The position numbers and the translations under genes were made by a program. The notes beneath the pieces were generated by a model that did no database searches, was not told where the DNA came from, and saw only the letters and a program-made list of their open reading frames with translations. From NCBI RefSeq assembly GCF_003675325.1, contig NZ_CP033073.1:6882001-6946000 (forward strand): DNA of 64,000 bases. Reading direction: 5' to 3'. This DNA is from Streptomyces dangxiongensis (GTDB taxonomy: Bacteria; Actinomycetota; Actinomycetes; Streptomycetales; Streptomycetaceae). Of the stretch, positions 8,055-44,310 are shown one piece after another. The stretch's first letter is position 1, and every line of letters begins with the position of its first letter.

Positions 8055-8432
8055 GTGCGTGAAGGCTACATGGGACGGCCGGCCAAGCAGCCGGCGCCCG
8101 CACCCAAGCCCGCGAGCAGGCGCAGCCCGTCCTCGGCGGGGCTGCCGGGGGCCGCGGACGACCTGCTGTTCCCGATCCACCACGGCATCCTCTACTACCC
8201 GGGCATCGAGGTGGTGCCACCGTTCGTGCTGTACGGCGCCGACCGGATGACCGGCGAGGACTTCCCGGACGCCGCCAAGGCTTGGGAGCAGCGCCTGCTC
8301 ACCCGGGAGTCGACCGAGCCGATCGCGTTCCGGCGGCAGAACTTCGGCGACTACGAGATCCCCTCGCTGCACCTGAAGGAGGGACTGGAGCCCGCGGGCC
8401 GTACGGGTTTCGGGCTGCACATATGCGGCTGA
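8055..8432 (+). pseudogene. C-terminal fragment of a flavodoxin-fold NAD(P)H:quinone oxidoreductase
   Basis: From about 8160 the frame reads FPIHHGILYYPGIEVVPPF and then VLYGADRM, typical of the C-terminal third of Flavodoxin_2 family NAD(P)H oxidoreductases. It continues with ALxx-like TTEPIAF equivalents (STEPIAFRRQNFGDY). The N-terminal flavin-binding part is missing. The 35 residues before the homologous part are Pro/Ala/Arg-rich and look like non-homologous sequence, and the phosphatase gene ends only 25 bases upstream. It is best read as a truncated remnant. If translated, it would lack the FMN site. Confidence 0.6.
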
Positions 8433-9794: not shown

Positions 9795-10792
9795 CTAACC
9801 CACGAGCGGGATGACGGACAGGATGAGGCCGAGGATCCCGATGACCAGGCCGACCGCCTCCCACGGTCTGTCCCGGACCACGTCGCGCAGCGATCTGCGC
9901 TGGACGTCCGGCAGACTCCACGGCAGGCCGCGGAGGCCCCCGGGGAGCGACTGGTCGAGTCGCTCCAGGGCGGTGACGTTCAGGGTGGTGCCGTCGAGTG
10001 AGGTCGCCCGGTCGAGCAGGGCATCCTCGGGCACCCAGCGTCCGCCAGGGCCCACTGGTATCGACCGGGCCTTCGACTCGAGTCGGAAGAGTACGACCTG
10101 GTACTCCGTAACCGCGCCGAACGTCCGGGGAGAGTTGGACAACGGAGACCGTACCGAGTTCCTTCAGCTCGTCCCGACCCGCAGTGTGGTCATAGCCCGG
10201 CAGCTCCTCCTCCAGTTCCCGGACGGCCGCGGCACGGGCATCAGTGTCCGAGGCACGGATGTGGCCGCCCGGCAATTGGTACTGCCGGGCTCGATCGTCG
10301 TACAGCAGCAGGTACTGGGCCCGGCCACCGCGGCCCCGGAGGCGGCACTTGACCACCACCTGGACGACCTCGGTGCGGCGTAGCGGTGCGGCGTCGGGAT
10401 CGAGGGCCAGCCGCCGCTCCTCCACCAGGTGGAGGAACTGCGGTCCGGACAGCACCTGGCGGCTGGTGTACGGCGGCTCGGCCGTTCCCGGCCGTTCCCA
10501 GTTGGTCCAGGATGGAACGGCCCGTCCGCACATAGGAGGCAAGGCTGTGCAGGAAATAGCGCGCTTGCGGGCTGACCGCGACCACGCCGTCCTGACCGCC
10601 CGCCGATTCGTGCTCGGACCGCAGGACGCCGAACGCACGCAGCAGCACCAGCACCATCGGCGGTGCGGTCTCGGCAGCCGGTCCGCTCAGGCCCGCCCGT
10701 CGACAGAGCTCGGACAGCGGGACCGGAGGCCCGGCATGTTCGGCCACGGCCTCCAGGAGCGCGGCGACCGCAGTCGCCTCGTCGTCCGCCAC
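9795..10792 (-). pseudogene. NUDIX hydrolase with N-terminal HTH-like domain, broken by two frameshifts
   Basis: Three minus-strand frames join into one gene of about 328 codons. Frame 1 (from GTG 10792) has a winged-helix-like N-terminus ending SILDQLGTA. Frame 2 continues AEPPYTSRQVLSG and carries the NUDIX box (GGHIRASD, then REXXEE as RELEEE). Frame 3 continues FGAVTEYQVVLFRLE to the stop at 9795, with a C-terminal membrane helix (GLVIGILGLILSVIPLVG). The first break is an exact 10-base tandem duplication at 10480-10499; removing one copy restores the frame. The second is one extra C in a CCCC run near 10128. The start lies 3 bases after the stop of the giant upstream gene, so the two were an operon. 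The glutamate normally six residues after the NUDIX glycine is not conserved. Confidence 0.8.
10480..10499. repeat. 10-bp tandem duplication GGCCGTTCCC x2
   Basis: GGCCGTTCCC occurs at 10480-10489 and again at 10490-10499 with no gap. Ten is not a multiple of three, so the extra copy shifts the NUDIX reading frame by one. With one copy the protein reads continuously as DQLGTAEPPYTS. Slipped-strand loss could restore the frame. Confidence 0.9.
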
Positions 10793-10795
10793 AGC

Positions 10796-13700
10796 TCATC
10801 CCTCCCCGTCGGAGGGCTGGGCGTCGCGGGCACGCAGAGCCCAGGTGTCCGGCCTCGGGCAGTAGGCCTCCCAGCCGTACGCCTCGGCCAACCGACGGAG
10901 CGTGCGGCCGACGGTCACCGCCTGGTAGGTCTCAGGTCCCCACCGCTCCCGCAACGCGTTCCCGAGGTCGGTGAGACGAGCCTCGCCGTCACGCGTCAGC
11001 AACTCTCCGATCAGGGTGTTCAGGTCCGCCGCGACATCCACCTCCGCCGCCGGGCGCTGCGCCGTCCCGGGAGCGCCGGCTCGATGGGCCAGGTGCACGC
11101 CGGGACGGATCTCCTCCAACCACCAACCGGGTTCACGTTCGATCCGCTTCTTCAACGAGGAGCCGACGACGTTCGCGTACGCGTCGCCGAGTCGTGATCG
11201 AAGGTTCGACCCGATCGTCTGGAGGTTGGGGGGCTTTCCCTGCCCGGCGAGTTCGTCCACGATGTGGGCGAGCGCGGTGGTGAAGGGCTCCGACGTGTTG
11301 GCGGGCGGCGCGGGAGCACTGGCTCGGTGGACCAACTGCACACCCGGCTTGAGTTCCCGCAGTTCCCACCCCGGTTGCCGTTCTATCCGCCTCTGCAGGG
11401 AACCGCCGACTACGGCGTCGTACCTGCTCTTCAAATGCTTCACGAGCCCGTTCTTCACCCTGTAGAACGTGGGCGCCTTGCCCTTGTCGACTTGTTGGAG
11501 CGCGGCGACCACGGAATCCAACGCCGTGCCGAAGTCGTCCCGCTCATCGGCGCGTCTGTCCTGCCCCGCATCCTTCGCACGGCCGTCCGGGATGCGCCCG
11601 AACACCCTCCCGCTGGTCAGGCTCAGCATCCTGTTGCCGGGGGGCCCGCTCTGCTTCAGCCAGTCCAGCTCGGCCCACAACCGCTCCAGGGACGGCAGCC
11701 CGAGACGGCGCGCGAGCGGCTGGCAGCCCTTGAACCTTTCCTCCAGCCAATCCTCGAGTTCCCGCGTCGGCACCGCGCGCACGCTCTGCGCAAGCCGCTC
11801 CTCGACCTCGTACCGCAGGTCGGTCTCGACGCGCCCGCGGAGCTGCTCCGCGTCCACCACCTCGGTGCCCACCAGCGTGGCCGTAAGGGGCAACAGCTCC
11901 AGGCCCCGCGCGTTGCGCCCACCGTTGCGGTCCATCTCCACCATGACCGCCCGTACGATCTGGCCGCGGACCGGACCGTCCACAAGCGGCGTCCGGACAT
12001 CGCCGGTCGTGAAGCGCGCCCACCCGTGGTTCACCAGTTCAACGATGCCGTGCCCCTGGGTCGCATTGACGAAAGTGATGCGGCCCAGCTCCTGCCGGCC
12101 GTCGGAGGACTGCCCATGGCCGGCCGGTGTCGACCCGACCGGTTGGCCCGGGCCGCGGAGCATTTGGACGAGAGGATCGTTGTCGTCGGCGTCGAAGTAG
12201 ACCCGGCCCGACTCGGCGAGGAGTTCGGCGGCGTCCGCGCCGTCGTACCGGAAGCGGGCGCTGACCCGCTGGGTGAGCCGGGACAGCCGGGGTGTGTCGC
12301 CGACCGTCTGCCATGCCTCCAGCAGGGAGATGCAGAAATCAAGCTTGCGCTGCCGGGTGAGCGTGGCAGCCTGCGCCGCGACTTGGGCGGGCGCCAGGTA
12401 CACGGGCTGCCGGGCGGCGAGCGTGCGAACCGGGCCTGTCGACACCGTCTGCCGTGCCCGCAGGGCGTGATCGACGTGCCCCCGTCTGACGTCCCACGCG
12501 CGGGGCCCCTCGGGGCTGAGGCCGAGGAAGAAGTTGACCGGGGTGTTCTCGTCGCTCTCCGGAAGGAACTTGCCCCGGGAGGGGACGAAGAAGGCGGTGA
12601 CCGCGCCTTCGAGTTGGATGGTGCCCGCCTGGGGCCCGCGGATGAGGTCGATGACGCCGTTCACCCGCTGCAGATGCGTGGTGTTCGTCCAGAACATGTC
12701 CCGGCGGCTCCATTCGCCCAGGTCGCTGTCGGCGATCAGCGGATACCACTCGGGGCCGGCGGACAGCCACAGATAGGAGCGGTTGGAGCGGCCCACCACG
12801 TACTTCTCGGCCTGCTGCTGCTCCACGCGGAAAGCCTCCACGTCGTTGCTGCGCCCCGTGAACCAGAGGTGGAAGAAGAGGCAGTACCGGTAGTAGTGGG
12901 CGCGCCACGAGGGGAACCGGTCCGCCCAGAGTTGGAGCTGGGAGAGCGCCTCGTCGATGTCGAACTCTGGCAGGAGCTTGTACGCTTCGAACCAGAGCCG
13001 GTAGTCCTCCTCCTTGCAGCCCGTTCTGGAGAGGTTCTGCCGGGCCAGCTCCACGATACGGGCCAGCTCGGCGGCGTCCAGTTCCCGCCAGCTACGGCCG
13101 CCGCGTACGTAGTACGCCTGAGCGAGCGCCCGCTGCATCATGGGTGTGCTGCGGTCGCCGGCGACGGCGAGCTCCCACAGCTCGACCACCGAGTCGAGGT
13201 CTCCGTACAGCCGCTTGATGTCCGCCTGGCACCGCACCAAGTAGTCGTCGTGCTGGTCCAGAGTCCCGTACAGTTGGGCGGCCTCGTTCAGCAGGAAGTT
13301 GGCCTCGGCCACGTTCTCCGCGACCCACTCGCTCGCGTCGGAGCTGAGTTCCGCGATGGACGAGACCCGTGCCGCGTCCTTGATGGCCTTGGCGACGTCG
13401 ACGATGGCCTGCACATGGGTGACGTAACCATAGATGTTCTCCGGATTGAGTTTCCGGGTGGTGGCGAAGCACTCGACGGTCTGCGCGAACCATCGGTCGG
13501 CGACGGCCATCACCGACTGAACCCCGCGCCGCTTGGCGCCGCGCAGCGCTTGGCGCATCCGGCTGCGGCGCGCGAGACCGAGGGTGTGGTGATGCAGGAA
13601 ATCCCACTCCGCCAGGTCCACCGCCCGCGTGACGTACTCCTCTGCTTTGTCGAGCTCCCGGTTGAGGCGGTACATCTGGTGTCGGCCCAGGTGGTTCCAG

Positions 13701-16700
13701 AAGTGCGGCTCGTCGGGCACGTGCTCGGTGAGGGACTTGAGCACCTGGTGGGCGGAGTTGAGATCAAGCTGCTCGATCAACGGGGCGAACTTCCGCCGAT
13801 CCTCGATCCCGTCCGCAGTGCCGCCCTGCCGGTCCACGAACATCTGGCGGAGCAGCACCCGCACCGGGTCCGCGGCCACGTCGGTGGTGATCGCCAGAGC
13901 CTGGATGAAGTCGATCGACACCTCCTTGAGATGCTGCTTCCACCGGTCGTCGTTGAGGAGTTCGGCCAGTACCTGTTCGGCCAGGAGCTGATGCTGGAGG
14001 CGTACCCGGCCGTTGCGCACCGCCACCAGCCGTGCCGCTTCCGGGCCCAGCACATCGGAGAGGTCGAGCTCTGCCGACGGTGTGGAGACGTGCATCAGCT
14101 TCTGCACCAGCTCCCGCTGCAACCCGGTGTTGGAGTAGATGGTGGCCAGGGCGAGGTACTGCATGACCTCGCGCGCTCGGCCGCGTACATGGTCGAGATG
14201 GGTGCGCACGTAGGTGGAGAGCTTGGTGAACTCCCGCTCGAAGGTGACGAGGCCGTAGAAGAAGGGCGTGCGGTAGTGCTCGTAGTGCTTGGTGCCCAGC
14301 AGCCGCAGCTCGTCGATCCGATGCTGGTCGTTCGTCAGCGCGGAGTAGCGGCCGAAGAACTCGGCGGTCTCCGCCGGTTCCAGCGGCTCCGACACTTGAA
14401 GGGCGGTCCGGTTTGACTGAGCGACCCCCCGCCTGACGTAGAGAATGGTCAGCGGGGTGTTGCGCCTGGCCGACTCGCGGTACAGCACCTCCCGGTAGGA
14501 CTCGCTCAGGTCGCCCGCCTCAGCGACCAGCAGCACCGGCAACTGCGTGATGGTGTACAGCAGATGCAGTCGGTCGGCGACGAGCGGGACGCGCGACGGC
14601 CCGATCGGTGCGCCGTGCGGGAGCACCGCCACCGGATACTCCTGGTGCAGGTCCCAGGCGGCGCGCAGGGCCGCGGTGGTGCCGCCGGCGCCCGGCCGGT
14701 GCTCGACCACGACGGTACGGGTGCGATGCTGCCTCAGACTGTCACGGAGGGCGGCCACGATGCCGTCGTTGACGGCGCGCACCACGTCCCGACCAGCGTC
14801 CAGATCATCCCAGCCGATGAGGCCGCCGCGCCAGAAAGCGTCATTGTCGCTCTTGTCGCCGGGCGGAGTGGCGGCATCGATCCCGTCATGCAGGATCACC
14901 AGGTGCTCGTGCAGCTTCTGCATGGTCTCCGGCGAGATCGCCACCGTGCCGTTGTCGAGGGCGGGCACCGTGTAGTCGAGGTACTCGGCGCTGCTGCCCA
15001 GTGTCGCGGTGAGGCGGTCCAGCAGGTCGCGCACGGGCAGCGGCACCTGGACCACGGGAACGTAGGGCTGTAGGTCGGCCAGTCCCACGTGCAGGAAGAT
15101 CGCCTGCCCCTGGAACATCTCGTCCATGGTCTCGATGACCCGCGGCAGTCTGTTCCGGCCCCCTTCCGGCGCGGACTCGGTGCCGCCCTCGAGCACCAGG
15201 ACGTACACCGGCGTATCGCCGACGAACTGGTGGAATGAGGAGGTGAGCCGACGCACGGTGTCCAGGCGACGGAGCACCCACTCGCGTCCCTCCAGGGCGG
15301 GCTCCCGGCGGAGCACGGAACCGGCGGCCAGCAGCCAGGCCGTGCCGCGCGCATAGTCGATCACCGGGCGCTCCTCGGTGAAGAGATGCACCGCGCGCTG
15401 CGCGTTGAGGACCGGGCTCGCCCAGTGGTGAAGTCCGTCGCCGTCCGAGGCCGGGTCGAGGTCGACGATCAACGACCAGGGGATGCGGCCGAGCGCCGAG
15501 ATGGATGATGTGCGGGGGAGTTGCTCCGCGACGAGGACGTACCGGGCCGCGTGCGGGGAGAACCCGGAGACGGTCCCCCAGAATGACTCCCACAGGTCCT
15601 CGCGGACCCGCTCCACCTCCCCCGGCGGGGTGTGGGCCACGGGAACGCTCGGCTGCGGCGGCTGCTGCCGCGCGGCGTCGGCGAAGGTCCTGCGGTACCG
15701 CAGGGCGTACCAGCCGGCATAGGCGAGGCAGAGCCGGGTGCGTTCGTCGTCATGGGGGAAGCGCCGGGCCCACACCAGTGCGGTCGCCATGCGTACCAGC
15801 GTGAACTGCTGGTACAGGCGGTCCACCCGCCCGGTCTGCCCGGAGACCCATTCCGAGATGCCGGCGCGTGACCGCTGCAGGAAGTCCACGAGCCACTGGC
15901 AGTCGTCCGGAACCGGCTTGACCGGGACGTCCTCAGCGGCCTCCAGGCACCGGGCGAGCACGGGGCGGCGGATGGCCGGCAGTATGTTCACCAGGACGCT
16001 GACCTCGAGGTAGGCCAGGTCGAACCCGGCGACGGACCGGCGCGCCTGGTCCAGATCGACGATCCAGTAGGAGTTGTCGTCGGCAGTCACCTCGTCCCGA
16101 GGCACGAGCACGTTGCTGGTGTTGAGGTCCCCGTGGCAGATGCCCCCCATGATCGGCAGCTCGCCGCCGTCGGCCTCGCCGAGGACGGCGAGGGGATTGA
16201 GGAACGCGTGCCCGTCCTCGTGGTGGACCTCGCCCCGGAAGAAGGACGGTACAACGGCCAGGCACTCGGCGAGTCTGGCCGTTCCGGTGACCGCCGGCAG
16301 CAGGTCGTGCGGCCTCATCTGCGTCATGTCGCTCGGGTCCGCCCAGGCGTTCAGCACGTCGTGGGAAATGGAGTGCGCGCAGCGCAGCAGCCCCGTCGAA
16401 CCACTGCGCGGCGGGCTGTACCGGCTGAGGCTGCCGCCGGCGAGTTGGTGCAGCGACACCACCAGCCGGACGTCGCCGTGGCGACGTTGGTCGATGCGCA
16501 GCAGACGAGGGATGTGCCGCTCGGCGAAGTCCGGGTCGGCGTCGCGGATCAGGTGATGGGCCGCCCGTTCGTTGGCCTGGGCGAGGTCCTCCTCCGCCGG
16601 GCCGACGCGTAGGACGTAGGTGCCTGACCGGAAGCCTCCGGTGTCGCCGCTGATGTCCACGCTCACCAGCTCGGCACCCGAGCGGCCCCTTGGCATCGGC

Positions 16701-16795
16701 TCGAAGAGAAACCGCGCGGAGGGTAACCAGAGGTTCAGGGCCTCAGTCGCCATTTCCTGATATGCGGCATCGGTGAGACGCAGCCCCTTGTCCAA
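10796..16795 (-). CDS. Giant kinase-like / STAND-like NTPase / TPR / cold-shock-like / winged-helix-repeat protein
   Basis: The protein has 1999 residues. Residues 20-290 resemble an aminoglycoside-phosphotransferase/protein-kinase fold, with the catalytic loop HGDLNTSN (221-228) and metal-binding DLD (247-249). Residues 400-640 form a Rossmann-like region with GRIPWSLIVDLDPASDGDGL (436-455). Residues 690-800 hold a P-loop, RPGAGGTT (700-707), which lacks the usual lysine, and a Walker B-like PVLLVAEA (753-760). Residues 850-1000 look like a winged-helix/arm region and 1010-1340 like TPR helices. Two cold-shock-like OB segments lie near 1378-1436 and 1570-1636. Three C-terminal repeats (1754-1825, 1838-1906, 1922-1988) resemble winged helices of the OST-HTH/LOTUS kind; the first two share R-I-E-R-x-P-G-W and P-G-V-x-L-x-H-R. 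The start is TTG 16795 behind GGGGGGAA. It leads the operon with the NUDIX gene. No signal or membrane segment is seen, so it is probably cytoplasmic. The function is not established. Confidence 0.75.
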   Translation of the reverse strand: MDKGLRLTDAAYQEMATEALNLWLPSARFLFEPMPRGRSGAELVSVDISGDTGGFRSGTYVLRVGPAEEDLAQANERAAHHLIRDADPDFAERHIPRLLRIDQRRHGDVRLVVSLHQLAGGSLSRYSPPRSGSTGLLRCAHSISHDVLNAWADPSDMTQMRPHDLLPAVTGTARLAECLAVVPSFFRGEVHHEDGHAFLNPLAVLGEADGGELPIMGGICHGDLNTSNVLVPRDEVTADDNSYWIVDLDQARRSVAGFDLAYLEVSVLVNILPAIRRPVLARCLEAAEDVPVKPVPDDCQWLVDFLQRSRAGISEWVSGQTGRVDRLYQQFTLVRMATALVWARRFPHDDERTRLCLAYAGWYALRYRRTFADAARQQPPQPSVPVAHTPPGEVERVREDLWESFWGTVSGFSPHAARYVLVAEQLPRTSSISALGRIPWSLIVDLDPASDGDGLHHWASPVLNAQRAVHLFTEERPVIDYARGTAWLLAAGSVLRREPALEGREWVLRRLDTVRRLTSSFHQFVGDTPVYVLVLEGGTESAPEGGRNRLPRVIETMDEMFQGQAIFLHVGLADLQPYVPVVQVPLPVRDLLDRLTATLGSSAEYLDYTVPALDNGTVAISPETMQKLHEHLVILHDGIDAATPPGDKSDNDAFWRGGLIGWDDLDAGRDVVRAVNDGIVAALRDSLRQHRTRTVVVEHRPGAGGTTAALRAAWDLHQEYPVAVLPHGAPIGPSRVPLVADRLHLLYTITQLPVLLVAEAGDLSESYREVLYRESARRNTPLTILYVRRGVAQSNRTALQVSEPLEPAETAEFFGRYSALTNDQHRIDELRLLGTKHYEHYRTPFFYGLVTFEREFTKLSTYVRTHLDHVRGRAREVMQYLALATIYSNTGLQRELVQKLMHVSTPSAELDLSDVLGPEAARLVAVRNGRVRLQHQLLAEQVLAELLNDDRWKQHLKEVSIDFIQALAITTDVAADPVRVLLRQMFVDRQGGTADGIEDRRKFAPLIEQLDLNSAHQVLKSLTEHVPDEPHFWNHLGRHQMYRLNRELDKAEEYVTRAVDLAEWDFLHHHTLGLARRSRMRQALRGAKRRGVQSVMAVADRWFAQTVECFATTRKLNPENIYGYVTHVQAIVDVAKAIKDAARVSSIAELSSDASEWVAENVAEANFLLNEAAQLYGTLDQHDDYLVRCQADIKRLYGDLDSVVELWELAVAGDRSTPMMQRALAQAYYVRGGRSWRELDAAELARIVELARQNLSRTGCKEEDYRLWFEAYKLLPEFDIDEALSQLQLWADRFPSWRAHYYRYCLFFHLWFTGRSNDVEAFRVEQQQAEKYVVGRSNRSYLWLSAGPEWYPLIADSDLGEWSRRDMFWTNTTHLQRVNGVIDLIRGPQAGTIQLEGAVTAFFVPSRGKFLPESDENTPVNFFLGLSPEGPRAWDVRRGHVDHALRARQTVSTGPVRTLAARQPVYLAPAQVAAQAATLTRQRKLDFCISLLEAWQTVGDTPRLSRLTQRVSARFRYDGADAAELLAESGRVYFDADDNDPLVQMLRGPGQPVGSTPAGHGQSSDGRQELGRITFVNATQGHGIVELVNHGWARFTTGDVRTPLVDGPVRGQIVRAVMVEMDRNGGRNARGLELLPLTATLVGTEVVDAEQLRGRVETDLRYEVEERLAQSVRAVPTRELEDWLEERFKGCQPLARRLGLPSLERLWAELDWLKQSGPPGNRMLSLTSGRVFGRIPDGRAKDAGQDRRADERDDFGTALDSVVAALQQVDKGKAPTFYRVKNGLVKHLKSRYDAVVGGSLQRRIERQPGWELRELKPGVQLVHRASAPAPPANTSEPFTTALAHIVDELAGQGKPPNLQTIGSNLRSRLGDAYANVVGSSLKKRIEREPGWWLEEIRPGVHLAHRAGAPGTAQRPAAEVDVAADLNTLIGELLTRDGEARLTDLGNALRERWGPETYQAVTVGRTLRRLAEAYGWEAYCPRPDTWALRARDAQPSDGEG

Positions 16796-17188
16796 CGGTT
16801 CCCCCCAGCCTCAGCTGGTCGGTCACATCCTGCCATGCCCCGACCACTCAAATGGTTGTACCACCCCACATGGGTGACCAGTGGACGGATTCGTGAGTGG
16901 GCGGCGACCGATCCCGCGGACTCCCTCACTGGCCATGCGTGGATGCCTTCTCCGCCGCCCGCACCGCACGCAGGGGCTCCACAACGCCCCGCGCCTGGGA
17001 GGCGGGGACGTGCGGCAGTGGGCTCGCCCCGGCGTCTGTCCCTGCGGGGCCGGGGACGATGACCGAGGAACTCCTGATCGATCCGATTGGGCCGCGTCGT
17101 CAAGTACGCGCACCTGAACGTGCTTGGCGCACCCCTCTGGAGCTGCCTGGAGGGAAAACAACCCCTCCAGGCAGCCGACTCGATACTC
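16796..17188. other. Gene-free stretch upstream of the giant gene
   Basis: This 393-base gap lies between the start of the giant gene and the 3' end of the aldehyde dehydrogenase. It holds the strong dehydrogenase terminator near its right end. It must also hold the promoter for the giant operon on the minus strand, but I could not pick a convincing -35/-10 pair. Frames inside it have no family resemblance. Confidence 0.5.
17142..17175 (-). terminator. Rho-independent-like hairpin after aldehyde dehydrogenase
   Basis: GCTGCCTGGAGGG (17142-17154) pairs perfectly with CCCTCCAGGCAGC (17163-17175) around the 8-base loop AAAACAAC. It lies 14 bases past the dehydrogenase stop on the minus strand. 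Confidence 0.85.
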
Positions 17189-35089: not shown

Positions 35090-35955
35090 CACAGGGACCG
35101 GAACAGGCCTTCCTGGACTACCGAGACGAGCAGCCGCCCCCGTACGTCGTAGATGCGACCGCGGGCCAGGCCCCGCCCACCGGTGGCGATCGGCGACTCC
35201 TGGTCGTACAGGAACCACTCGTCCGCCCGGAACGGCCGGTGGAACCACATGGCGTGGTCCAGAGACGCCAGGTCGAAGTTCCGCGGTCCCCACAGCGGCT
35301 CGACCGGGATGCGCACCGCGTCCAGGAGGGTCATGTCACTGGCGTAGGTCAGCGCGCACGTGTGCACCAGCGGATCGTCGCCGAGCGGGCCGACCGCGCG
35401 CATCCACACGGCGCTGCGCGGCTCGGCGCCCTGGATCTCGTCAGCGTTCCAGCGCAGGCGGTCGACATACCGGATGTCGAAGGGCTGGCGGCGTGCCATC
35501 CGTTCCAACTGCTCGGGCAGCGACCCGAGATGCTTGCGTATCTCCTCGGTGACCGTCGGCAGCGACTGTGGGTCCGGCACCTCACGGGCCGGCGGGAGCT
35601 GATGCTCGAACGGTCCTTCCTCAGGCTTGTGAAAGGAGGCGGTCAGATTGAAGATCGTGCGACCCTGCTGCACGGCCGTGACCCGGCGCGTGGTGAACGT
35701 GCGCCCGTCGCGGACCCGCTCCACCTGGTACACGATCGGCACGCCGGGCCGGCCCGGGCGCAGGAAGTACGCGTGCAGGGAATGCACCGGGCGCTCGCCG
35801 TCCGTGGTGCGGCCGGCGGCGACCAGTGCCTGGCCCGCCACCTGGCCGCCGAAGACCCGCTGGAGGGACTCCTGCGGGCTGCGGCCACGAAAGATGTTGA
35901 CCTCGATCTGCTCCAGGTCGAGCAGGTCGACGAGTCTCTCGGCCGGATTCGTCAT
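35089..35955 (-). CDS. tesB: Acyl-CoA thioesterase II
   Basis: The 288-residue protein has the double hot-dog fold of TesB, which hydrolyses acyl-CoA to free acid and CoA. Family marks are VFGGQVAGQALVAAGRT, PVHSLHAYFLRPG, the strand FTTRRVTAVQQG and the second hot-dog HAMWFHRPFRADEWFLY with ARGRIYDVRGRLLVSVVQEG. The start at 35955 lies 19 bases past the stop of the upstream helicase in the same direction, so the two are probably an operon. Confidence 0.94.
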   Translation of the reverse strand: MTNPAERLVDLLDLEQIEVNIFRGRSPQESLQRVFGGQVAGQALVAAGRTTDGERPVHSLHAYFLRPGRPGVPIVYQVERVRDGRTFTTRRVTAVQQGRTIFNLTASFHKPEEGPFEHQLPPAREVPDPQSLPTVTEEIRKHLGSLPEQLERMARRQPFDIRYVDRLRWNADEIQGAEPRSAVWMRAVGPLGDDPLVHTCALTYASDMTLLDAVRIPVEPLWGPRNFDLASLDHAMWFHRPFRADEWFLYDQESPIATGGRGLARGRIYDVRGRLLVSVVQEGLFRSL

Positions 35956-35974
35956 CGGTGGGTTTCTCCTGTGC

Positions 35975-38488
35975 TCAGAGCTGGCCGACATCGGTGACGC
36001 GGACGATCGCACGGCCCTCGGCGTCCGAGGCCGTGAGGTCGATCTCGGCGCTGATGCCCCAGTCGTGGTCGTCGTTCGGGTCGTCGAAGATCTGGCGGAC
36101 GCGCCACAGGGCGTTCTCCGGCTCCTCCTTGATGACGAGCAGCTTGGGGCCGCGGGCATCGGGTCCGGTGCCGAGGTCGTCGTACTCGTCCCAGTACTTG
36201 TCCATCGCCTCGCCCCAGGCGTCGGCGTCCCAGCCGGAATCGGCGTCCATCTCGCCCAGTTCCTCGACGTGGTCGAGGGCGGCCAGCTCCACGCGTCGGA
36301 ACATGGCGTTGCGGACCAGGACGCGGAAGGCGCGGGCGTTGGCGGTGACCGGCTTGACCTCGTCGGCCTTCTCCTGGGCCTCCTCGGCGGTCATCTCCTC
36401 CGGGTTGGCCAACTGCTCCCACTCGTCCAGCAGGCTGGAGTCCACCTGGCGCACCACCTCGCCCAGCCACTCGATCAGATCCTGCAGGTCCTCGGACTTC
36501 AGGTCGTCCGGGATGGTGTGGTCGAGGGTCTTGTAGGCACTGGCGAGGTAGCGCAGCACGATGCCCTCGGTGCGGGCCAGCTCGTAGTGGGACACCAGCT
36601 CGGTGAAGGACATGGCCCGCTCGTACATGTCCCGGACGACCGACTTCGGGGACAGCGGGTGGTCGCCCACCCAAGGGTGGCTCTTGCGGTAGGTGTCGTA
36701 CCCGTGGAAGAGCAGCTCCTCCAGCGGCTTCGGGTACGTGACGTCCTGGAGGCGTTCCATCCGCTCCTCGTACTCGACACCGTCGGCCTTCATGGCGGCC
36801 ACGGCCTCACCGCGCGCCTTGTTCTGCTGGGCGGCCAGGATCTGCCGCGGGTCGTCCAGGGTGGACTCGACGACGGAGACCATGTCGAGGGCGTAGGACG
36901 GCGACTCGGGATCCAGGAGCTCGAACGCGGCGAGGGCGAACGTGGACAGCGGCTGGTTAAGCGCGAAGTCCTGCTGGAGGTCGACCGTGAGCCGGACGAT
37001 GCGGCCCTCGGCGTCCGGTGTGTCCAGCTTCTCCACGATGCCGCCGCCGAGCAGCGAGCGGTAGATCGCGATCGCCCGGCGGATGTGCCGGAGCTGCTGC
37101 CTGCGCGGCTCGTGGTTGTCCTCCAGCAGATGGCGCATCGCCTCGAACGCGTTGCCCGGGCGGGCGATCACCGACAGCAGCATCGTGTGCGTCACCCGGA
37201 ACCGCGAGGTCAGCGGCTCCGGATCCGACTCGATCAGCTTCTGGAAGGTGTTCTCCGTCCAGCCGACGAAACCCTCCGGCGCCTTCTTGCGCACCACCTT
37301 GCGCCGCTTCTTCGGGTCGTCGCCCGCCTTCGCCAGCGCCTTCTCGTTCTCGACGACGTGCTCCGGCGCCTGCGCGACGACGAGCCCGGCCGTGTCGAAG
37401 CCGGCCCGGCCGGCCCGGCCCGCGATCTGGTGGAACTCCCGGGCCCGCAGCGTGCGCACGCGGTTGCCGTCGTACTTGGTCAGCGCCGTGAACAGCACCG
37501 TGCGGATGGGCACGTTGACACCCACGCCGAGCGTGTCCGTGCCGCAGATGACCTTCAGCAGGCCTGCCTGCGCGAGCTTCTCCACCAGGCGCCGGTACTT
37601 GGGCAGCATGCCGGCGTGGTGCACGCCGATACCGTGCCGGACGTAACGGGAAAGGTTGCGACCGAACTTGGTGGTGAAGCGGAAGTTGCCGATCAGCTCG
37701 GCGATCTGGTCCTTCTCCTCGCGCGAACACATGTTGATGCTCATCAGCGCCTGCGCCCGCTCGACGGCCTGCGCCTGCGTGAAGTGCACGATGTAGACCG
37801 GCGCCTGCCTGGTCTCCAGCAGCTCGGTGAGAGTCTCGGTCAGCGGGGTGAGCTGGTACTCGTAGGAGAGGGGCACCGGGCGCGTGGCCGAGCGGACCAC
37901 CGCCGTGGGGCGGCCGGTGCGACGGGTGAGGTCCTTCTCGAAGAAGGACATGTCACCCAGGGTGGCCGACATCAGAATGAACTGCGCTTGCGGCAGTTCC
38001 AGCAGGGGGATCTGCCAGGCCCAGCCGCGGTCACCCTCGGCGTAGAAGTGGAACTCGTCCATGACGACCTGGCCGACATCCGCGCCCTTGCCGTCGCGCA
38101 GCGCGATCGACGCCAGTACCTCTGCGGTGCAGCAGATCACGGGTGCGTCGGCGTTCACGGACGCGTCACCGGTGAGCATGCCGACGTTCTCGGTGCCGAA
38201 GATCTTGCACAGCTCGAAGAACTTCTCCGACACCAGCGCCTTGATGGGTGCCGTGTAGAAGGTGACCTCGTCGCGCGCCAGCGCCGCGAAGTGCGCACCC
38301 GCGGCGATCATGCTCTTACCGGAACCGGTGGGCGTCGACACGATCACGTTCGCCCCGGAGACCACCTCGATCAGCGCCTCCTCCTGATGCGGATAGAGGG
38401 TGAGGCCCCGCTCCCGCGCCCACGACTCGAAGGCTTCGTACAGGGCGTCGGGGTCGGCGGTCGGCGGCAACTGATCGATGAGGGTCAC
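35975..38488 (-). CDS. DEAD/DEAH-box RNA helicase, Ski2-like
   Basis: The 837-residue protein has two RecA-like domains. Motif I is STPTGSGKS, motif Ia TAPIKALVSEK, motif II MDEFHF, motif III SATLGD, motif IV-V region FTALTKYDG and GTDTLGVGVNVP, and motif VI HQIAGRAGRAGFD. A long C-terminal region of about 400 residues follows, with a Lys/Arg-rich insert (DDPKKRRKVVRKKAP). The layout fits actinobacterial Ski2-like helicases, thought to act in RNA turnover. The start GTG 38488 follows GGGGG. It leads the operon with tesB and is divergent from a DUF457 gene. Confidence 0.93.
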   Translation of the reverse strand: MTLIDQLPPTADPDALYEAFESWARERGLTLYPHQEEALIEVVSGANVIVSTPTGSGKSMIAAGAHFAALARDEVTFYTAPIKALVSEKFFELCKIFGTENVGMLTGDASVNADAPVICCTAEVLASIALRDGKGADVGQVVMDEFHFYAEGDRGWAWQIPLLELPQAQFILMSATLGDMSFFEKDLTRRTGRPTAVVRSATRPVPLSYEYQLTPLTETLTELLETRQAPVYIVHFTQAQAVERAQALMSINMCSREEKDQIAELIGNFRFTTKFGRNLSRYVRHGIGVHHAGMLPKYRRLVEKLAQAGLLKVICGTDTLGVGVNVPIRTVLFTALTKYDGNRVRTLRAREFHQIAGRAGRAGFDTAGLVVAQAPEHVVENEKALAKAGDDPKKRRKVVRKKAPEGFVGWTENTFQKLIESDPEPLTSRFRVTHTMLLSVIARPGNAFEAMRHLLEDNHEPRRQQLRHIRRAIAIYRSLLGGGIVEKLDTPDAEGRIVRLTVDLQQDFALNQPLSTFALAAFELLDPESPSYALDMVSVVESTLDDPRQILAAQQNKARGEAVAAMKADGVEYEERMERLQDVTYPKPLEELLFHGYDTYRKSHPWVGDHPLSPKSVVRDMYERAMSFTELVSHYELARTEGIVLRYLASAYKTLDHTIPDDLKSEDLQDLIEWLGEVVRQVDSSLLDEWEQLANPEEMTAEEAQEKADEVKPVTANARAFRVLVRNAMFRRVELAALDHVEELGEMDADSGWDADAWGEAMDKYWDEYDDLGTGPDARGPKLLVIKEEPENALWRVRQIFDDPNDDHDWGISAEIDLTASDAEGRAIVRVTDVGQL

Positions 38489-38633
38489 GCCCCCATCTTG
38501 CCTGGCCTCCCGCCTGAGCGGGGAATCGGCTGCGGCCACGAAGATCACGGCCGCTACGCTGTGTCGCCGACGCAGCGTCGGTGCACCAGGCCAACTGGAC
38601 AGCGGCACACGAGGGATGGGGCGGGAAGCGGCC

Positions 38634-39428
38634 ATGATGGGACCAGCACACTCACTGTCGGGGGCCGCGGCCTGGCTCGGCGTCGGTGCGGCCGCCGCCG
38701 CGGCCGGTCATACGATGCCCTGGCCGGTCCTCCTCACCGGCGCTCTGATCTGCGCCGGTGCCGCGCTCGCCCCGGACCTCGACCACAAGGCGGCCACCAT
38801 TTCCCGGGCCTTCGGGCCGATCTCCCGCTGGATCTGCGAGATCGTGGACAAGCTGTCGTACGCCGTCTACAAGGCGACGAGGAAGCAGGGCGACCCACGT
38901 CGCTCCGGTGGTCACCGCACACTGACCCACACCTGGCTCTGGGCGGTGCTGATAGGCGCCGGCTGCTCAGCGGCGACGATCACGGGAGGCCGTTGGGCGG
39001 TGCTGGCGATCCTGTTCGTACACATGGTGCTGGCGATCGAGGGCCTGCTGTGGCGGGCGGCGCGCGGTTCCAGCAGCGACGTCCTGGTCTGGCTGCTGGC
39101 GGCCACCAGCGCGTGGATCATCGCCGGGGTGCTGGACAAGCCGGGCAACGGTTCCGACTGGCTCTTCACCGCGCCCGGGCAGGAGTACATGTGGCTGGGG
39201 CTGCCGGTCGTGCTGGGGGCGCTGGTGCACGACATCGGGGATGCGCTGACCGTGTCCGGCTGCCCGATCCTGTGGCCCATCCCGGTGGGCCGAAAGCGCT
39301 GGTACCCGATCGGGCCGCCGAAGCCGATGCGGTTCCGGGCCGGAAGCTGGGTCGAGTTGCGCGTACTGATGCCGGTGTTCATGCTGCTCGGGGGTGTGGG
39401 CTGTGCCGCGGCTCTCAACGTGATCTGA
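38634..39428 (+). CDS. Membrane-bound metal-dependent hydrolase, DUF457/YdjM family
   Basis: The 264-residue protein has about five membrane segments and the family metal motifs: an early His in GPAHSLSG, APDLDHK, GGHRTLTHT and VHDIGDALT. The YdjM family is predicted to consist of membrane hydrolases and is often linked to the LexA regulon; no LexA box was seen here. Start 38634 (ATG-ATG) is preferred; 38616 is in frame. It is divergent from the helicase across 145 bases. Confidence 0.85.
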   Translation: MMGPAHSLSGAAAWLGVGAAAAAAGHTMPWPVLLTGALICAGAALAPDLDHKAATISRAFGPISRWICEIVDKLSYAVYKATRKQGDPRRSGGHRTLTHTWLWAVLIGAGCSAATITGGRWAVLAILFVHMVLAIEGLLWRAARGSSSDVLVWLLAATSAWIIAGVLDKPGNGSDWLFTAPGQEYMWLGLPVVLGALVHDIGDALTVSGCPILWPIPVGRKRWYPIGPPKPMRFRAGSWVELRVLMPVFMLLGGVGCAAALNVI

Positions 39429-39478
39429 GGGAGCCCACCGGACGCTGTCCTCGACGTGGTCCGCGCAACCCTGCCGGA

Positions 39479-39742
39479 TCAGCTCGCCTCATCCGTGCCC
39501 GCCCCGCCGTACCGGCGCTCGAACCGGGCGATGCGGCCCTCGGTGTCCACCGTGCGGGCCTTGCCCGTGTAGAAGGGGTGGCTCTCCGAGGAGATCTCCA
39601 CGTCGATCACCGGGTAGGTCCGGCCGTCGTCCCACTCGATGGTCTGCTCGCTCCGCGCGGTGGAACGGGTCAGGAACGCGTATCCGGCGGCCCGGTCGCG
39701 GAAGACGACCGAGTGGTAGTCGGGGTGCTTGTCCTGCTGCAT
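39479..39742 (-). CDS. rpmE2: Ribosomal protein L31, type B (cysteine-free)
   Basis: The 87-residue protein reads [22 protein letters not shown] and [14 protein letters not shown], which define the type B L31. The CxxC zinc pairs of the zinc-binding L31 are absent, so this is the zinc-independent form used under zinc limitation. In relatives it is repressed by Zur; the 42-base gap upstream shows no obvious Zur box, and the gene may be read through from the DUF5709 gene. Confidence 0.95.
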
Positions 39743-39784
39743 GGCGGCTCCTCGTGCGGGGCGGTCGGGCCGGTGGTGCGCGGG

Positions 39785-40255
39785 TCAGCCCGGGAGCGAG
39801 TCCTCGTCGACGATGTGGATCGCCGCTTCCTCCGCGGAGGCGGCGGCACCGTCGATCCCGACGTCGGTGGCGACGAGAGCGGGCTCCTCATCCTCGTGTG
39901 CACCCTCGTCGGGGGCGACCAGCCGGCCGGAGCGGAGGTTGCCGACCTCGTTGTCGAGGAGTTCCCCGTCCGTGCCGTCACAGTCACCGATGCCGTCGCC
40001 GCTCGGGGTGGCCAGGTCGGGCAGCTCCTCGGCGAGCCGCTGGTCGAGGCTCTCACCGGCCTTGCGTTCGGCAGCCGTCACACCGATGTGTTCCACCGCC
40101 CACGGTCGCTCGGGAGGGGACCAGCCGCGGTCGAGCGGTTCGGCGATGCCGTCGAAGTCCAGTGTGTCCTCGACGTCGAGCACCCCCGAATCCTCCGGGA
40201 TCTCCGATGGATCGGGTTGATAGACGTCGTCCCCCCAGCCGTCGGCGCTGTCCAC
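39785..40255 (-). CDS. DUF5709 protein
   Basis: The 156-residue acidic protein shows the streptomycete DUF5709 pattern: DDVYQPDPSE, LDVEDTLDFDGI, DRGWSPPERPWAVE and GESLDQRLAEELPDL, ending VDEDSLPG. The GTG start at 40255 follows GGAGG at 5 bases. It lies 42 bases upstream of rpmE2 in the same direction. The function is unknown. Confidence 0.8.
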   Translation of the reverse strand: MDSADGWGDDVYQPDPSEIPEDSGVLDVEDTLDFDGIAEPLDRGWSPPERPWAVEHIGVTAAERKAGESLDQRLAEELPDLATPSGDGIGDCDGTDGELLDNEVGNLRSGRLVAPDEGAHEDEEPALVATDVGIDGAAASAEEAAIHIVDEDSLPG

Positions 40256-40663
40256 GAGTACCTCCAGGTGGTGAGGACGGCCGGGTGCCGCCCCAGCGGA
40301 CGGCGGGCCGTCGGCACGCCCGGCACGGGGGTTACGCGCCGTGAATCGAGTGGTCCTCGCGCGTTCCTCCGGCCGGTGCCGCCTTCCAGCCTTCCACCCC
40401 TGCTCGGCACCGCGCAACGGCACGGACCCCGGCGAGGAGCCACGCATCCGCACCGGCGCAGGGCGCGACCTGCGGGGCACCGGTACGGGGGCTGCACCGG
40501 CACGGCCGGCCCGTCCCGCCTCGGCCGTGCCGGCCCTGGCGCCCCGGGCCGGCGTACCGCCATCGGTGCGGACACCGGCGCCGCGGGCCGGCCTGCCGCC
40601 GCCGACCCAGGCACCGGTCCCGGCACCTGTACCCGCCCGGGCATCGGTGGAACAGCCCCGCCG
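40256..40663. other. Gene-free, low-complexity GC-rich stretch
   Basis: This 408-base gap lies between the DUF5709 gene and the ABC operon end. It is rich in repeated CCGG, GGCACCGG and similar short units, and both strands have open frames dominated by Ala, Pro, Arg and Gly without family resemblance. It must hold the DUF5709/rpmE2 promoter. No clear terminator for the ABC operon was found. Confidence 0.55.
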
Positions 40664-42445
40664 TCACCCGTGCCAGGACCGCCACAGCGCCGCGTACGCC
40701 CCATCCGCGGCGACCAGCTCGTCGTGGCTGCCCAGCTCGCTGATCCGGCCGTTCTCCACCACCGCGATCACGTCGGCGTCGTGGGCGGTGTGCAGACGGT
40801 GGGCGATGGCGACGACGGTGCGGCCGTCGAGGACCCGCGCCAGCGAGCGTTCCAGATGGCGGGCCGCGCGCGGGTCGAGCAGCGAGGTCGCCTCGTCCAG
40901 GACCAGCGTGTGCGGATCGGCCAGCACCAGCCGGCCCAGCGCGATCTGCTGGGCCTGCGCCGGGGTCAGGCCGAGTCCGCCGGAGCCGACCTCGGTGTCC
41001 AGGCCGTCGTCGAGTGCCCGCGCCCAGCCGTCCGCGTCGACCGCGCCCAGCGCCGCCCACAGCTCGGCGTCCGTGGCACCGGTGCGGGCCAGCAGGAGGT
41101 TGTCACGCAGGGAGCCCACGAAGACATGGTGTTCCTGGTTGACCAGGGCGACGTGCGAGCGTACGCGTTCCGCGGGCATGCGGGACAGCTCGGCCCCGCC
41201 CAGGGTGACCCGGCCGTCCCGGGGCGCGTAGATCCCGGCGAGGAGCCGGCCCAGGGTCGACTTGCCCGCGCCGGACGGGCCCACCAGGGCCAGCCGGGTG
41301 CCCGGCGCGACCTCCAGGGAGACCGTGCGCAGGACGTCGACGCCCTCGCGGTAGCCGAAGTGGACCCGGTCGGCGCGCACGTCCCGCCCGTCGGGCACCA
41401 GTGCGGCGTCCCCCGCGTCGGGCTCGACCTCCCGTACGCCGACCAGGCGGGCCAGCGAGACCTGGGCGACCTGCACCTCGTCGTACCAGCGCAGGATCAG
41501 GTTCACCGGGTCGACGAGCATCTGCGCGATGAGCGCCCCCGTGATCAGCCGGCCCACGTCCAGCCAGCCGTGCAGGACGAGCACTCCGCCGACCATCAGG
41601 ACCGAGCCGAGCACGATGACGTGCACGGCGTTGATGACCGGGAAGAGCACCGAGCGGAGCCAGAGGGTGTAGCGCTCCCAGGCGGTCCATTCCTTGATCC
41701 GTCGCTCGGAAAGGGCGATGCGGCGGGCGCCGAGGCGGTGCGCCTCGATGGTGTGGCCGGCGTCCACGGTTTCGGCGAGCGCGGCGGCGACGGCGGCGTA
41801 CCCGGCGGCCTCGGAGCGGTAGCCGGAGGGTGCCCGCTTGAAGTACCAGCGGCAGCCGGCCACCAGTACCGGTACCGCGAGCAGCACGGCGGCGGCCAGT
41901 GGCGGGGCCGTCACCACGAGTCCGCCGAGCAGCAGCAGTGCCCACACGAAACCGATGGCCAACTGCGGTACGGCCTCGCGCATCGCGTTGGCGAGACGGT
42001 CGATGTCGGTGGTGATCCGGGAGAGGAGGTCACCGGTGCCGGCCCGTTCCAGCACGCCGGGCGGCAGCCCGACGGACCGGACGAGGAAGTCCTCGCGCAG
42101 GTCGGCCAGCATCCGCTCGCCCAGCATCGCGCCCCGCAGCCGCACCTGCCGGACGAAGGCGGCCTGCACGGCCAGTGCCAGCACGAAGAGCGTCGTGGTC
42201 AGGCCCAGGTGCAGCTCCCGGGAGCCGTCCGTCACCCGCTGGACCAGGTCACCGAGCAGGTACGGACCCACCATGGAGGCGATGACGGCCGCCGTGTTGA
42301 CGGTCACGAGCAGCAGGAAGGCCCGGCGGTGCCGGCGGAACAGCTCGCTGACATAGGCGCGCACGGTGGCGGCGGTGCCGACGGGCAGGGTCGTGGCGGT
42401 CGTCGGGGCCGCCGGGTCGTAGGCCGGTGGCGCAACGCCGATCAT
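40664..42445 (-). CDS. ABC exporter half (permease-ATPase) with intact Walker A and degenerate signature
   Basis: The 593-residue protein has six membrane segments (type IV/ABC_membrane domain, about residues 30-320) and a C-terminal nucleotide-binding domain. The Walker A is intact (GPSGAGKST), Walker B is TLVLDEATSLLD and the H-loop is AIAHRLHT. The signature is LTPAQ instead of LSGGQ. Its start overlaps the stop of the upstream half by four bases (ATGA), so the two are translationally coupled and form a heterodimer. Export of a drug, lipid or peptide is likely; the substrate is unknown. Confidence 0.93.
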   Translation of the reverse strand: MIGVAPPAYDPAAPTTATTLPVGTAATVRAYVSELFRRHRRAFLLLVTVNTAAVIASMVGPYLLGDLVQRVTDGSRELHLGLTTTLFVLALAVQAAFVRQVRLRGAMLGERMLADLREDFLVRSVGLPPGVLERAGTGDLLSRITTDIDRLANAMREAVPQLAIGFVWALLLLGGLVVTAPPLAAAVLLAVPVLVAGCRWYFKRAPSGYRSEAAGYAAVAAALAETVDAGHTIEAHRLGARRIALSERRIKEWTAWERYTLWLRSVLFPVINAVHVIVLGSVLMVGGVLVLHGWLDVGRLITGALIAQMLVDPVNLILRWYDEVQVAQVSLARLVGVREVEPDAGDAALVPDGRDVRADRVHFGYREGVDVLRTVSLEVAPGTRLALVGPSGAGKSTLGRLLAGIYAPRDGRVTLGGAELSRMPAERVRSHVALVNQEHHVFVGSLRDNLLLARTGATDAELWAALGAVDADGWARALDDGLDTEVGSGGLGLTPAQAQQIALGRLVLADPHTLVLDEATSLLDPRAARHLERSLARVLDGRTVVAIAHRLHTAHDADVIAVVENGRISELGSHDELVAADGAYAALWRSWHG

Positions 42446-44310
42446 GCGCTTTCCTCCATGTGTTCCAGTTCCATCAGCACGCCGTCGTCGGAACCGGCCG
42501 CCCTCTCGCCGGTCCCGGCCGGCTCCTCACGGGTCCCGGCCGGCTCCTCGTCGGTCTCGCGGGTCACCACGGCCCGGTACCGCGGCTCGCTGTCGACCAG
42601 TTCCCGGTGCGTGCCGACCGCGACGATCTCGCCCTCATGGACGAGGACGACCCGGTCCGCGCGGTCGAGCAGCAGCGGGGAGGAGGTGAACGCGACCGTC
42701 GTCCGCTCCGACCGCAGCCGGCGCAGACCGTCCGCGATGCGTGCCTCGGTGTGCGAGTCGACCGCGGAGGTCGGCTCGTCCAGCACCAGCACCTCCGGAT
42801 CGGTGATCAGCGATCGGGCGAGTGCGAGGCGCTGGCGCTGGCCGCCGGACAGGGAGCGCCCGCGCTCGGTGATGCGGGCGTCCATCGGGTCGGCGGTGTC
42901 GAGCGAGCCCTGTACGAGCGCGTCCAGCACGTCCCCGCACTGGGCTGCGGCCAGCGCGTCCGCGGCTCCTACGGCTCCGGAGGCGGGTACGTCGAGCAGC
43001 TCGCGCAGCGTACCGGACAGCAGCACCGGGTCCTTGTCCTGGACGAGGACGGCGGTCCGGGCGGTGTCGAGGGGCAGCTCGTCCAGGGGCTCCCCGCCGA
43101 GGAGCACCGACCGGTCCGGTTCCGTCGGGTGGCCGCCCAGCCGCTCGGCGAGTGTGCCTGCCGCGTCGGGGTCGCCGCACACCACGGCGGTGAACCGGCC
43201 GGCGGGGGCGAGCAGACCGGTCACCGGGTCGTACAGGTCACCGGCCGGCATCTCGGCCTCGGCTGCGGCCTCGGCCGAGTTCTGGTGGCCGTCCTTGTCC
43301 GTGCGGAGGGTGGTGGACCGTTCCAGCGACAGCACCCGCGCGGCCCGGCTGGCCGAGGGACGGGAGAAGGAGTACGCCATGGCGATCTCCTCGAAGTGCC
43401 GCAGCGGGTAGTTGAGGATCATGACGGCGCTGTAGACGGTGACGAGTTCGCCGACCGTGATGCGGCCCTGGCGGGCCAGGTGGATGCCGTGCCAGACGAC
43501 CGCGATGAGCAGCAGACCGGGCAGCAGCACCTGGACGGCGGAGATCAGCGACCACATACGGGCGCTGCGCACGGCGGCGTGCCGTACCTCCTGCGAGGCG
43601 CTGCGGTAGCGGTCGAGGAACAGCTCCTCGCCACCGATGCCGCGCAGCACCCGCAGCCCCGCGACGGTGTCCGAGGCCAGCTCCGTGGCACGGCCCGCCT
43701 TCGCGCGCTGCTCGTCGGCGCGGCGCGTCGCCCGGGGCAGCAGGGGAAGCACCGCGAGCGCCACGAAAGGCAGCCCGACGGCGACGACCACGCCGAGCGC
43801 CGGCTGGTAGACGAGCAGGGCGACGCAGACGATCAGGGCGGTCAGCGCGGCGGCGGTGAAACGGGAGACGGCTTCGACGAACCAGCCGATCTTCTCCACG
43901 TCACCGGTGGAGACGGCCACGACCTCACCGGCCGCGACCCGCCGGGTCAGGGCGGAGCCCAGTAGGGCGGCTCTGCGGGCCAGCAGTTGCTGGACGCGGG
44001 CGGCGGCGGTGATCCAGTTGGTGACGGCGGACCGGTGCAGGAAGGTGTCGCCGACCGCGATGGCCGTGCCGCAGACCAGCATCAGACCACCCGTCAGCGC
44101 GAGCCGGGTGCCGGAGTGGTCGATGACGGCCTGCACGGCCAGACCGACACAGAAGGGCAGCGCGGAGACGCCGACGAAGTGCAGCAGGCCCCAGGCGAGC
44201 GCCTTTAGCTGTCCGCCCAGCTGGTTGCGCCAGAGCCACCACAGGAATCGGGGACCCGAACGCGCGTCGGGAACGCCCGGATCGGAATACGGAAGGTCTT
44301 GAATCTGCAT
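42442..44310 (-). CDS. ABC exporter half (permease-ATPase) with degenerate Walker A and intact signature
   Basis: The 622-residue protein has six membrane segments (about residues 35-320) and a nucleotide-binding domain. The Walker A position reads GDPDAAGT, lacking the lysine. The signature LSGGQRQRLALARSL and Walker B VLVLDEPTSAVD are intact, but the H-loop His is replaced (AFTSSPLL). The C-terminus has a short EEPAGT repeat and an acidic end. With its partner (40664-42445) it would make one competent and one degenerate ATP site. It is the first gene of the pair. Confidence 0.92.
   Translation of the reverse strand: MQIQDLPYSDPGVPDARSGPRFLWWLWRNQLGGQLKALAWGLLHFVGVSALPFCVGLAVQAVIDHSGTRLALTGGLMLVCGTAIAVGDTFLHRSAVTNWITAAARVQQLLARRAALLGSALTRRVAAGEVVAVSTGDVEKIGWFVEAVSRFTAAALTALIVCVALLVYQPALGVVVAVGLPFVALAVLPLLPRATRRADEQRAKAGRATELASDTVAGLRVLRGIGGEELFLDRYRSASQEVRHAAVRSARMWSLISAVQVLLPGLLLIAVVWHGIHLARQGRITVGELVTVYSAVMILNYPLRHFEEIAMAYSFSRPSASRAARVLSLERSTTLRTDKDGHQNSAEAAAEAEMPAGDLYDPVTGLLAPAGRFTAVVCGDPDAAGTLAERLGGHPTEPDRSVLLGGEPLDELPLDTARTAVLVQDKDPVLLSGTLRELLDVPASGAVGAADALAAAQCGDVLDALVQGSLDTADPMDARITERGRSLSGGQRQRLALARSLITDPEVLVLDEPTSAVDSHTEARIADGLRRLRSERTTVAFTSSPLLLDRADRVVLVHEGEIVAVGTHRELVDSEPRYRAVVTRETDEEPAGTREEPAGTGERAAGSDDGVLMELEHMEESA

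Follow-up and report, generated by a model that had tools for sequence, protein, structure and literature searches.

A kinase-headed member of the SAMD9 family and its Nudix neighbour in Streptomyces dangxiongensis: a probable immune or stress-response device made of two genes

We have analyzed a stretch of 64,000 nucleotides of Streptomyces dangxiongensis (contig NZ_CP033073.1, positions 6,882,001 to 6,946,000, called the window from here on) that raises the question of what a bacterium does with a single polypeptide joining a kinase-like module, an NTPase and a long array of small domains. The polypeptide is encoded on the minus strand by one open reading frame (ORF) of 1999 codons (10796..16795, with a TTG start at 16795 and a TGA stop at 10796). 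Its multidomain character had already been pointed out in a preliminary description of the same DNA, and the ORF is confirmed here: its codon-position GC (0.72/0.46/0.89) is typical of a high-GC coding gene and, together with the homologues found, rules out a chance or antisense frame. The gene was matched once in the genome (8.16 Mb, 2 contigs), and a protein search retrieved 48 proteins, with named sources mainly in Streptomyces and the rest including Amycolatopsis, Micromonospora and Pirellulimonas. Our analysis indicates that the gene codes for a bacterial protein of the SAMD9 family, probably a STAND receptor (signal transduction ATPase with numerous domains) in which the N-terminal effector has been swapped, and that with its neighbour it probably makes up an immune or stress-response device.

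A profile search matched the window protein to SAMD9 with an E value of 3.4e-36, and phmmer aligned SAMD9 itself over residues 677-1081 (E 3.5e-5). A SAMD9-type SIR2-like domain (residues 400-640, 14876..15598, motif IPWSLIVDLDPASD) is followed by a nSTAND_NTPase5 P-loop domain (residues 653-789, 14429..14839), a helical, TPR-like region (about residues 1005-1345, 12761..13783, with approximate borders) and OB fold 1 (residues about 1376-1440, 12476..12670), all on the minus strand. This succession of SIR2-like, P-loop, TPR and OB parts is that of SAMD9, to which the protein is homologous in sequence. PF25199 (nSTAND_NTPase5) reached 35.4 bits against a cut-off of 34, and was found in 25/25 members at E values up to 5. 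The Walker A motif, HRPGAGGTT (14675-14701), carries Gly in place of Lys and a His upstream; GG(T/S) was present in 22/22 and the His in 21/22 of the kinase-type rows read (L030 left out), and this combination is a signature of the SAMD9 family (PMC5445408). The TPR matches were weak (TPR_14 in 14/25 members and TPR_2 in 9/25), and designed-TPR and IFIT chains appeared among the profile-search matches of the helical region. OB fold 1 corresponds to the OB fold at the C-terminus of SAMD9 (1405-1448); a second stretch of the profile match covers it weakly (i-Evalue 7) and the AlphaFold2 (AF2) model is beta-rich there. The AlbA_2/tRNase head of the family is absent, a kinase fold holding that position. 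Some members have lost the AlbA_2 head, and kinase-headed ones are counted in the family (PMC5445408). The window protein belongs to this kinase-headed bacterial branch, which was reported in 2017 in the same paper, so that the domain combination described as unusual is not without precedent.

The head (residues 1-375, 15671..16795) has in the AF2 model a kinase fold in which small-molecule kinases, i.e., choline and methylthioribose kinases, rank first. The catalytic loop (H221-D223-N228) and the metal-binding Asp (D247) form an HxDxxxxN...D motif that was invariant in 31/31 rows, and loop, metal-binding residue and fold are those of the APH/choline kinase/methylthioribose kinase type. The beta3 position that holds ATP, normally Lys, is Arg63 in the window protein; Arg was found in 21/31 rows and Lys in 10/31, the relatives outside the close clade being those that keep Lys. 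The TCAD9 profile (PF19974) scored 36.1 bits on the window protein, under its cut-off of 40, and passed the cut-off in the relatives P0048, L034 and L035; precomputed Pfam annotation lists it for P0003 as well. All six distant relatives scanned (L031, L034, L035, L036, L038 and L039) matched TCAD9, two of them above the cut-off, and the kinase motif of a further one, L040, reads HGDCHSQN.

Beyond OB fold 1 the protein continues with a winged-helix-like unit (WH1, residues 1465-1551, 12143..12403), seen in the AF2 secondary structure and aligned by hhalign to WH2 at 81%, a cold-shock type OB fold 2 (residues 1564-1639, 11879..12106), a further unit (WH2, residues 1645-1731, 11603..11863; AF2 and hhalign) and three C-terminal repeats, WH3 to WH5 (residues 1751-1829, 1833-1911 and 1916-1993, together 10817..11545). 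The three repeats are winged-helix-like in the AF2 model and mutually homologous (hhalign 99.57, 99.54 and 98.87%). When compared with P0003 (89% identical overall) all domains were 85-97% identical except WH2-WH5, at 78-83%, and the last three units are the fastest-diverging part of the protein. OST-HTH/LOTUS was matched in 2/25 members (best E 4.8e-4) and under the cut-off in L031 (E 1.1e-3), and a PDB sequence search with the winged-helix repeat profile gave no match at E 0.01; the repeats were not assigned to OST-HTH/LOTUS. The Foldseek and VIA runs on the C-terminal model were dominated by cold-shock matches, so the winged-helix-like units were barely probed by them. The interpretation given in the preliminary description is partly supported, the kinase-like head and the STAND-like module being among the supported points. 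What it called a Rossmann-like block corresponds to the SIR2-like domain of SAMD9, and its P-loop region to a P-loop with the SAMD9 K-to-G change. Of the several RNA-binding modules that it had proposed, only OB fold 2 has a clear nucleic-acid-binding relative; the same role for the others would be conjecture, the repeats not being notably basic.

The second gene of the putative device, which the preliminary description did not report, lies on the minus strand at 9795..10792, 3 nt downstream of the stop of the kinase-SAMD9 gene (the spacing is 4 nt in S. pini, and in ms191 the genes overlap by 4 nt). It codes for a protein of about 330 amino acids with a wHTH-like N-terminal part (HTH_IclR was under the cut-off in the window piece), a divergent Nudix domain and a C-terminal glycine-rich hydrophobic helix. 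The NUDIX profile gave 25.4 and 25.1 bits in two intact copies and 27.4 in the window piece, with a cut-off of 21.1. The Nudix box keeps R-E-L-x-E-E in 30/30 rows and departs from the textbook form, which has Glu where this protein has Asp, also by one extra residue. The Nudix gene adjoins the kinase-SAMD9 gene in 6/6 close loci read, those of the window, S. pini, ms191, G025, G174 and Amycolatopsis (in this last on the opposite strand), which amount to four chromosomal contexts, the pair being in the aspS-metG interval in three of the loci (ms191, G025 and G174).

Both genes were also followed over larger sets of genomes. Among 199 genomes at the genus level, 10 matched the query P0001, and four of these (G000, G025, G041 and G174, the latter in two frames) contained the long kinase-SAMD9 protein; the other six were a 31-32% relative (G140, G161 and G186), a part from residue 398 (G135) and weak kinase-region matches (G024 and G094). 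The Nudix query matched 4/199, exactly the four with the long protein. At the class level (394 genomes), P0001 matched its own genome, a 31% relative (G481) and a weak kinase region (G282); the sole strong Nudix match was again in the own genome, four others being weak (49-85 residues), and neither G481 nor G282 gave any. Besides, 17 of the 48 proteins retrieved by the protein search apparently share their source genome with one of 43 Nudix rows, an indirect sign of linkage, while 0/10 Lys-type rows do. The close relatives P0003, P0004, P0005 and P0007 showed no apparent Nudix row from the same genome (their flanks were not among the loci read).

We have also examined the surroundings of more distant kinase-headed relatives. 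In a Desulfobacteraceae locus (L031, 9950-20570) the kinase-type SAMD9 gene stands directly before a QatABCD set, with QatA, B, C and D beginning 328 bp after it. In a Magnetococcales locus (L034, 6526-14275) it comes directly after a type I restriction endonuclease gene that ends 82 bp ahead of the SAMD9 ORF, and a type I methyltransferase was matched there as well. Further PADLOC matches were LmuB (L040), a partial PDC-M54A (L035) and helicase-type ones (L036), and the ORFs scanned in L029, L030, L032, L033, L038 and L039 gave none. Taken together, PADLOC matched 241 (overlapping) families among 82 hand-chosen ORFs near 12 distant relatives, and of 20 of these ORFs scanned singly 9 had matches. 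Some distant kinase-SAMD9 genes (in Magnetococcales, Desulfobacteraceae and Phaeospirillum) are found close to defence genes, their neighbours belonging to Qat, type I restriction or Lamassu systems, and no link of this kind was seen for the close clade. The idea of a conflict system, advanced in the preliminary description, draws support from the distant loci.

The analogy with SAMD9 and the context of some distant relatives make a defence role likely, which for the close clade is a prediction. We favour, with moderate confidence, a STAND receptor acting in abortive defence, with the kinase head as effector and the Nudix protein as partner. A choline/APH-type kinase would have taken the effector place that in animal SAMD9 and in other bacterial relatives belongs to a nuclease head of the AlbA/Schlafen type. 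At rest the protein would be closed; its C-terminal array of OB fold and winged-helix-like repeats, which diverges fast, would bind a sign of infection or of damage to translation or nucleic acid, upon which the STAND core, with its SAMD9 GGT P-loop, would open and oligomerise, and the clustered kinase heads would act on a cellular target and halt growth. The wHTH-Nudix neighbour, presumably anchored in the membrane, would act in the same pathway, either as another effector or by producing or removing the signal enzymatically. More tentatively, the pair could be an actinomycete immune system in which the tRNase head of a SAMD9-type receptor has been exchanged for a small-molecule kinase and infection is turned into a phospho-metabolite or nucleotide pathway, the kinase writing and the membrane-anchored Nudix enzyme erasing or executing. 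If so, SAMD9-type immunity would have gained a new output chemistry, in a system either ancestral to the human antiviral protein or parallel to it.

Several findings weigh against the abortive-defence reading. Pfam scans of seven non-Nudix neighbours in the window point to housekeeping or regulatory genes; the families found were aldehyde dehydrogenase, GAF, DUF4232, a flavodoxin-like fragment, SpoIIE phosphatase, LysR regulator and an acetamidase-type protein. This neighbourhood was judged by Pfam, since in the PADLOC scan of nine neighbour ORFs three were overlapping Nudix frames and most others were doubtful. In the close clade, PADLOC matched two families (a transporter and mads_3) in a scan of 49 of the 64 listed neighbour ORFs, with no defence island by PADLOC among them, and the contrast with the distant loci spans different taxa and lacks a matched random control. 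Even in the distant loci, 11 of the 20 ORFs scanned singly gave no match. With the ATP-anchoring Lys replaced by Arg, the kinase activity of the close clade may be low or lost, and the C-terminal units have no clear basic character. The Nudix frame of the window is broken twice, which leaves three pieces that overlap (about 10786-10484, 10503-10129 and 10145-9801), and a short tandem repeat lies near one of the breaks; relatives have intact copies, and the window copy is either a pseudogene or an assembly error. In G174 (L004/L011) it is the kinase-SAMD9 gene that is split, into a frame of 1719 amino acids and a second piece over residues 1540-1998. The system may therefore be decaying, or the assemblies wrong. 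Finally, we found no experiment on a bacterial SAMD9 member in the open-access literature searched, a search that had most subscription papers outside its scope.

An unlikely variant of the receptor reading makes the head a regulatory pseudo-enzyme, with Lys63 changed to Arg, and the Nudix-membrane protein the true effector, which would hydrolyse a nucleotide-type substrate or act on the membrane once the SAMD9 receptor is triggered. Arg63 was present in all 6 loci with a Nudix neighbour seen directly, and the 14 other kinase-type loci that were read (leaving out L029 and L030) all have Lys, 13 of them being in the database searched and giving no Nudix match; the invariant R-E-L-x-E-E and the conserved glycine-rich C-terminal helix also speak for this variant. 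However, the correlation comes from one clade and is thus perhaps one evolutionary event, the HxDxxxxN loop and the metal Asp, which a pseudokinase would not need, are invariant within the Arg63 clade, and the Nudix box is itself atypical.

Even less probable appears a role outside immunity, in signalling or development of multicellular actinomycetes (control of stress, sporulation or antibiotics), in which the kinase would phosphorylate a metabolite or protein and the wHTH-Nudix protein would respond to nucleotides, as do NrtR-type proteins, regulators with a similar architecture of wHTH and Nudix-like parts. The named rows with at least 48% identity in the protein search all come from Streptomyces, Amycolatopsis and Micromonospora, the window neighbours (Aldedh, GAF, SpoIIE and LysR) would suit such a role, clear defence neighbours are missing in the close clade, and Nudix-related regulators exist (PMC6800001). 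Yet the long kinase-SAMD9 protein, found in 4/199 genus-level genomes and in variable sites, does not behave like a developmental gene, there are the relatives near defence genes in Magnetococcales, Desulfobacteraceae and Phaeospirillum, and the partner ends in a hydrophobic helix. Rather improbable too is the remnant of a once mobile defence gene decaying in this strain, with its Nudix partner already a pseudogene: the broken Nudix frame and the split gene of G174 fit it, but the 6 kb frame in the window is intact and as conserved outside WH2-WH5 as reported above, which suggests continued selection, and a sequencing error could explain the broken frames. These alternatives overlap in part with the abortive-defence receptor that we favour, the pseudokinase being a variant of it and the remnant, compatible with it elsewhere, concerning this strain only.

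Human SAMD9/SAMD9L (PDB 9zjr and others) has the SIR2-like domain, the STAND P-loop with GGT for GKT, the TPR/helical region and the OB fold in the same order. It differs in its N-terminal SAM and AlbA-type tRNase (tRNase-SA, PMC13245274) and in ending at the OB fold, whereas the window protein starts with a kinase and goes on for about 550 more residues, in which the second OB fold and five winged-helix-like units lie. SAMD9 is described in the same paper as an infection-activated tRNase that shuts off translation, and as an antiviral protein involved in human disease that lacks a known trigger. Bacterial relatives with exchangeable heads and an expanded tail offer a tractable route to what the SAMD9 core senses and how it is switched on, and the kinase-for-nuclease exchange would mark that core as a general receptor platform. 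The conserved Nudix partner adds a concrete, testable two-gene unit.

The kinase-headed bacterial members already described (Mekhedov, Makarova, Koonin 2017, PMC5445408) are also among the closest known systems: AlbA_2 is absent, an N-terminal kinase precedes the SAMD9 core, they occur in actinomycetes and some have two OB folds. That paper labels the head a Ser/Thr protein kinase, unlike our AF2 model, and the terms 'winged', 'operon' and 'neighborhood' do not occur in its main text. New here are the model of a small-molecule-type kinase head, the cold-shock OB fold with five winged-helix-like units, the Nudix partner and the defence-gene neighbours of distant relatives.

A search with the AlbA-headed relative P0050 gave 41 rows, 31 with PF04326 (AlbA_2/Schlafen), one with TCAD9 and APH, and one with PF05729 and PF12770, so bacteria have SAMD9 cores with two kinds of head, a kinase and, as animals do, one of AlbA type. 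The AlbA-headed proteins (P0050 and 30 other PF04326 rows) share the core through OB fold 1 and have mostly about 1,200 residues; their heads are predicted to be nuclease-type, and the two aligned (P0049 and P0050) lack the C-terminal extension. The row with PF05729 (NACHT) and PF12770 (CHAT) is a 1787-aa protein (P0126) that also has nSTAND_NTPase5 and possibly represents a third head type.

The VMAP/vWA-MoxR ternary conflict systems, source of the name TCAD, resemble the window protein in the TCAD9 score of its head. APH-like kinases have been noted among their effectors (PMC7159879), and a figure legend ties TCAD9 to vWA-MoxR-VMAP (PMC10910872). However, there was no vWA, MoxR or VMAP among the ten ORFs scanned around the window gene, and the STAND core is SAMD9-type. 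Avs5, a SIR2-STAND protein structurally similar to SAMD9 (PMC12931631), has a SIR2-like domain, a STAND module and a C-terminal sensor; the kinase head and the OB/winged-helix tail fall outside the architecture described in that paper. The kinase-SAMD9 protein itself had no PADLOC match and no plasmid match.

The interval between aspS and metG (L003/L016/L017, L004/L018, L028 and L053-L069) is a variable cargo site of this genus that carries the kinase-SAMD9/Nudix pair in three species. Of 17 further loci, which include one from the genome of the window, 15 had an interval of 288 bp to 9.7 kb and two lacked aspS in the stretch read. PADLOC matches (LeoA, LeoBC and PDC-S03) were found in at most 3/39 of its ORFs scanned (43 listed), so that the site is only mildly linked to defence. 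In the window a tRNA-type integration site was discarded, as it contains no tRNA and no convincing flanking repeats. The pair GAF-Aldedh was kept in 28 of the best 29 relatives' loci (100 genomes besides the own), and an empty site beside the aldehyde dehydrogenase was not seen, 0/29 loci showing the downstream genes of the window or the 16796-17188 stretch within flanks of about 1.5 kb. Near the Nudix pair, a plus-strand ORF of 125 amino acids (8055-8432) matches the last third of Flavodoxin_2 under the cut-off and resembles a truncated remnant. Another plus-strand ORF, of 2587 amino acids (35648-43411), is probably spurious, being antisense to better-scoring minus-strand ORFs (35975-38635, 40664-42445 and 42442-44310), and illustrates a pitfall of high-GC sequence.

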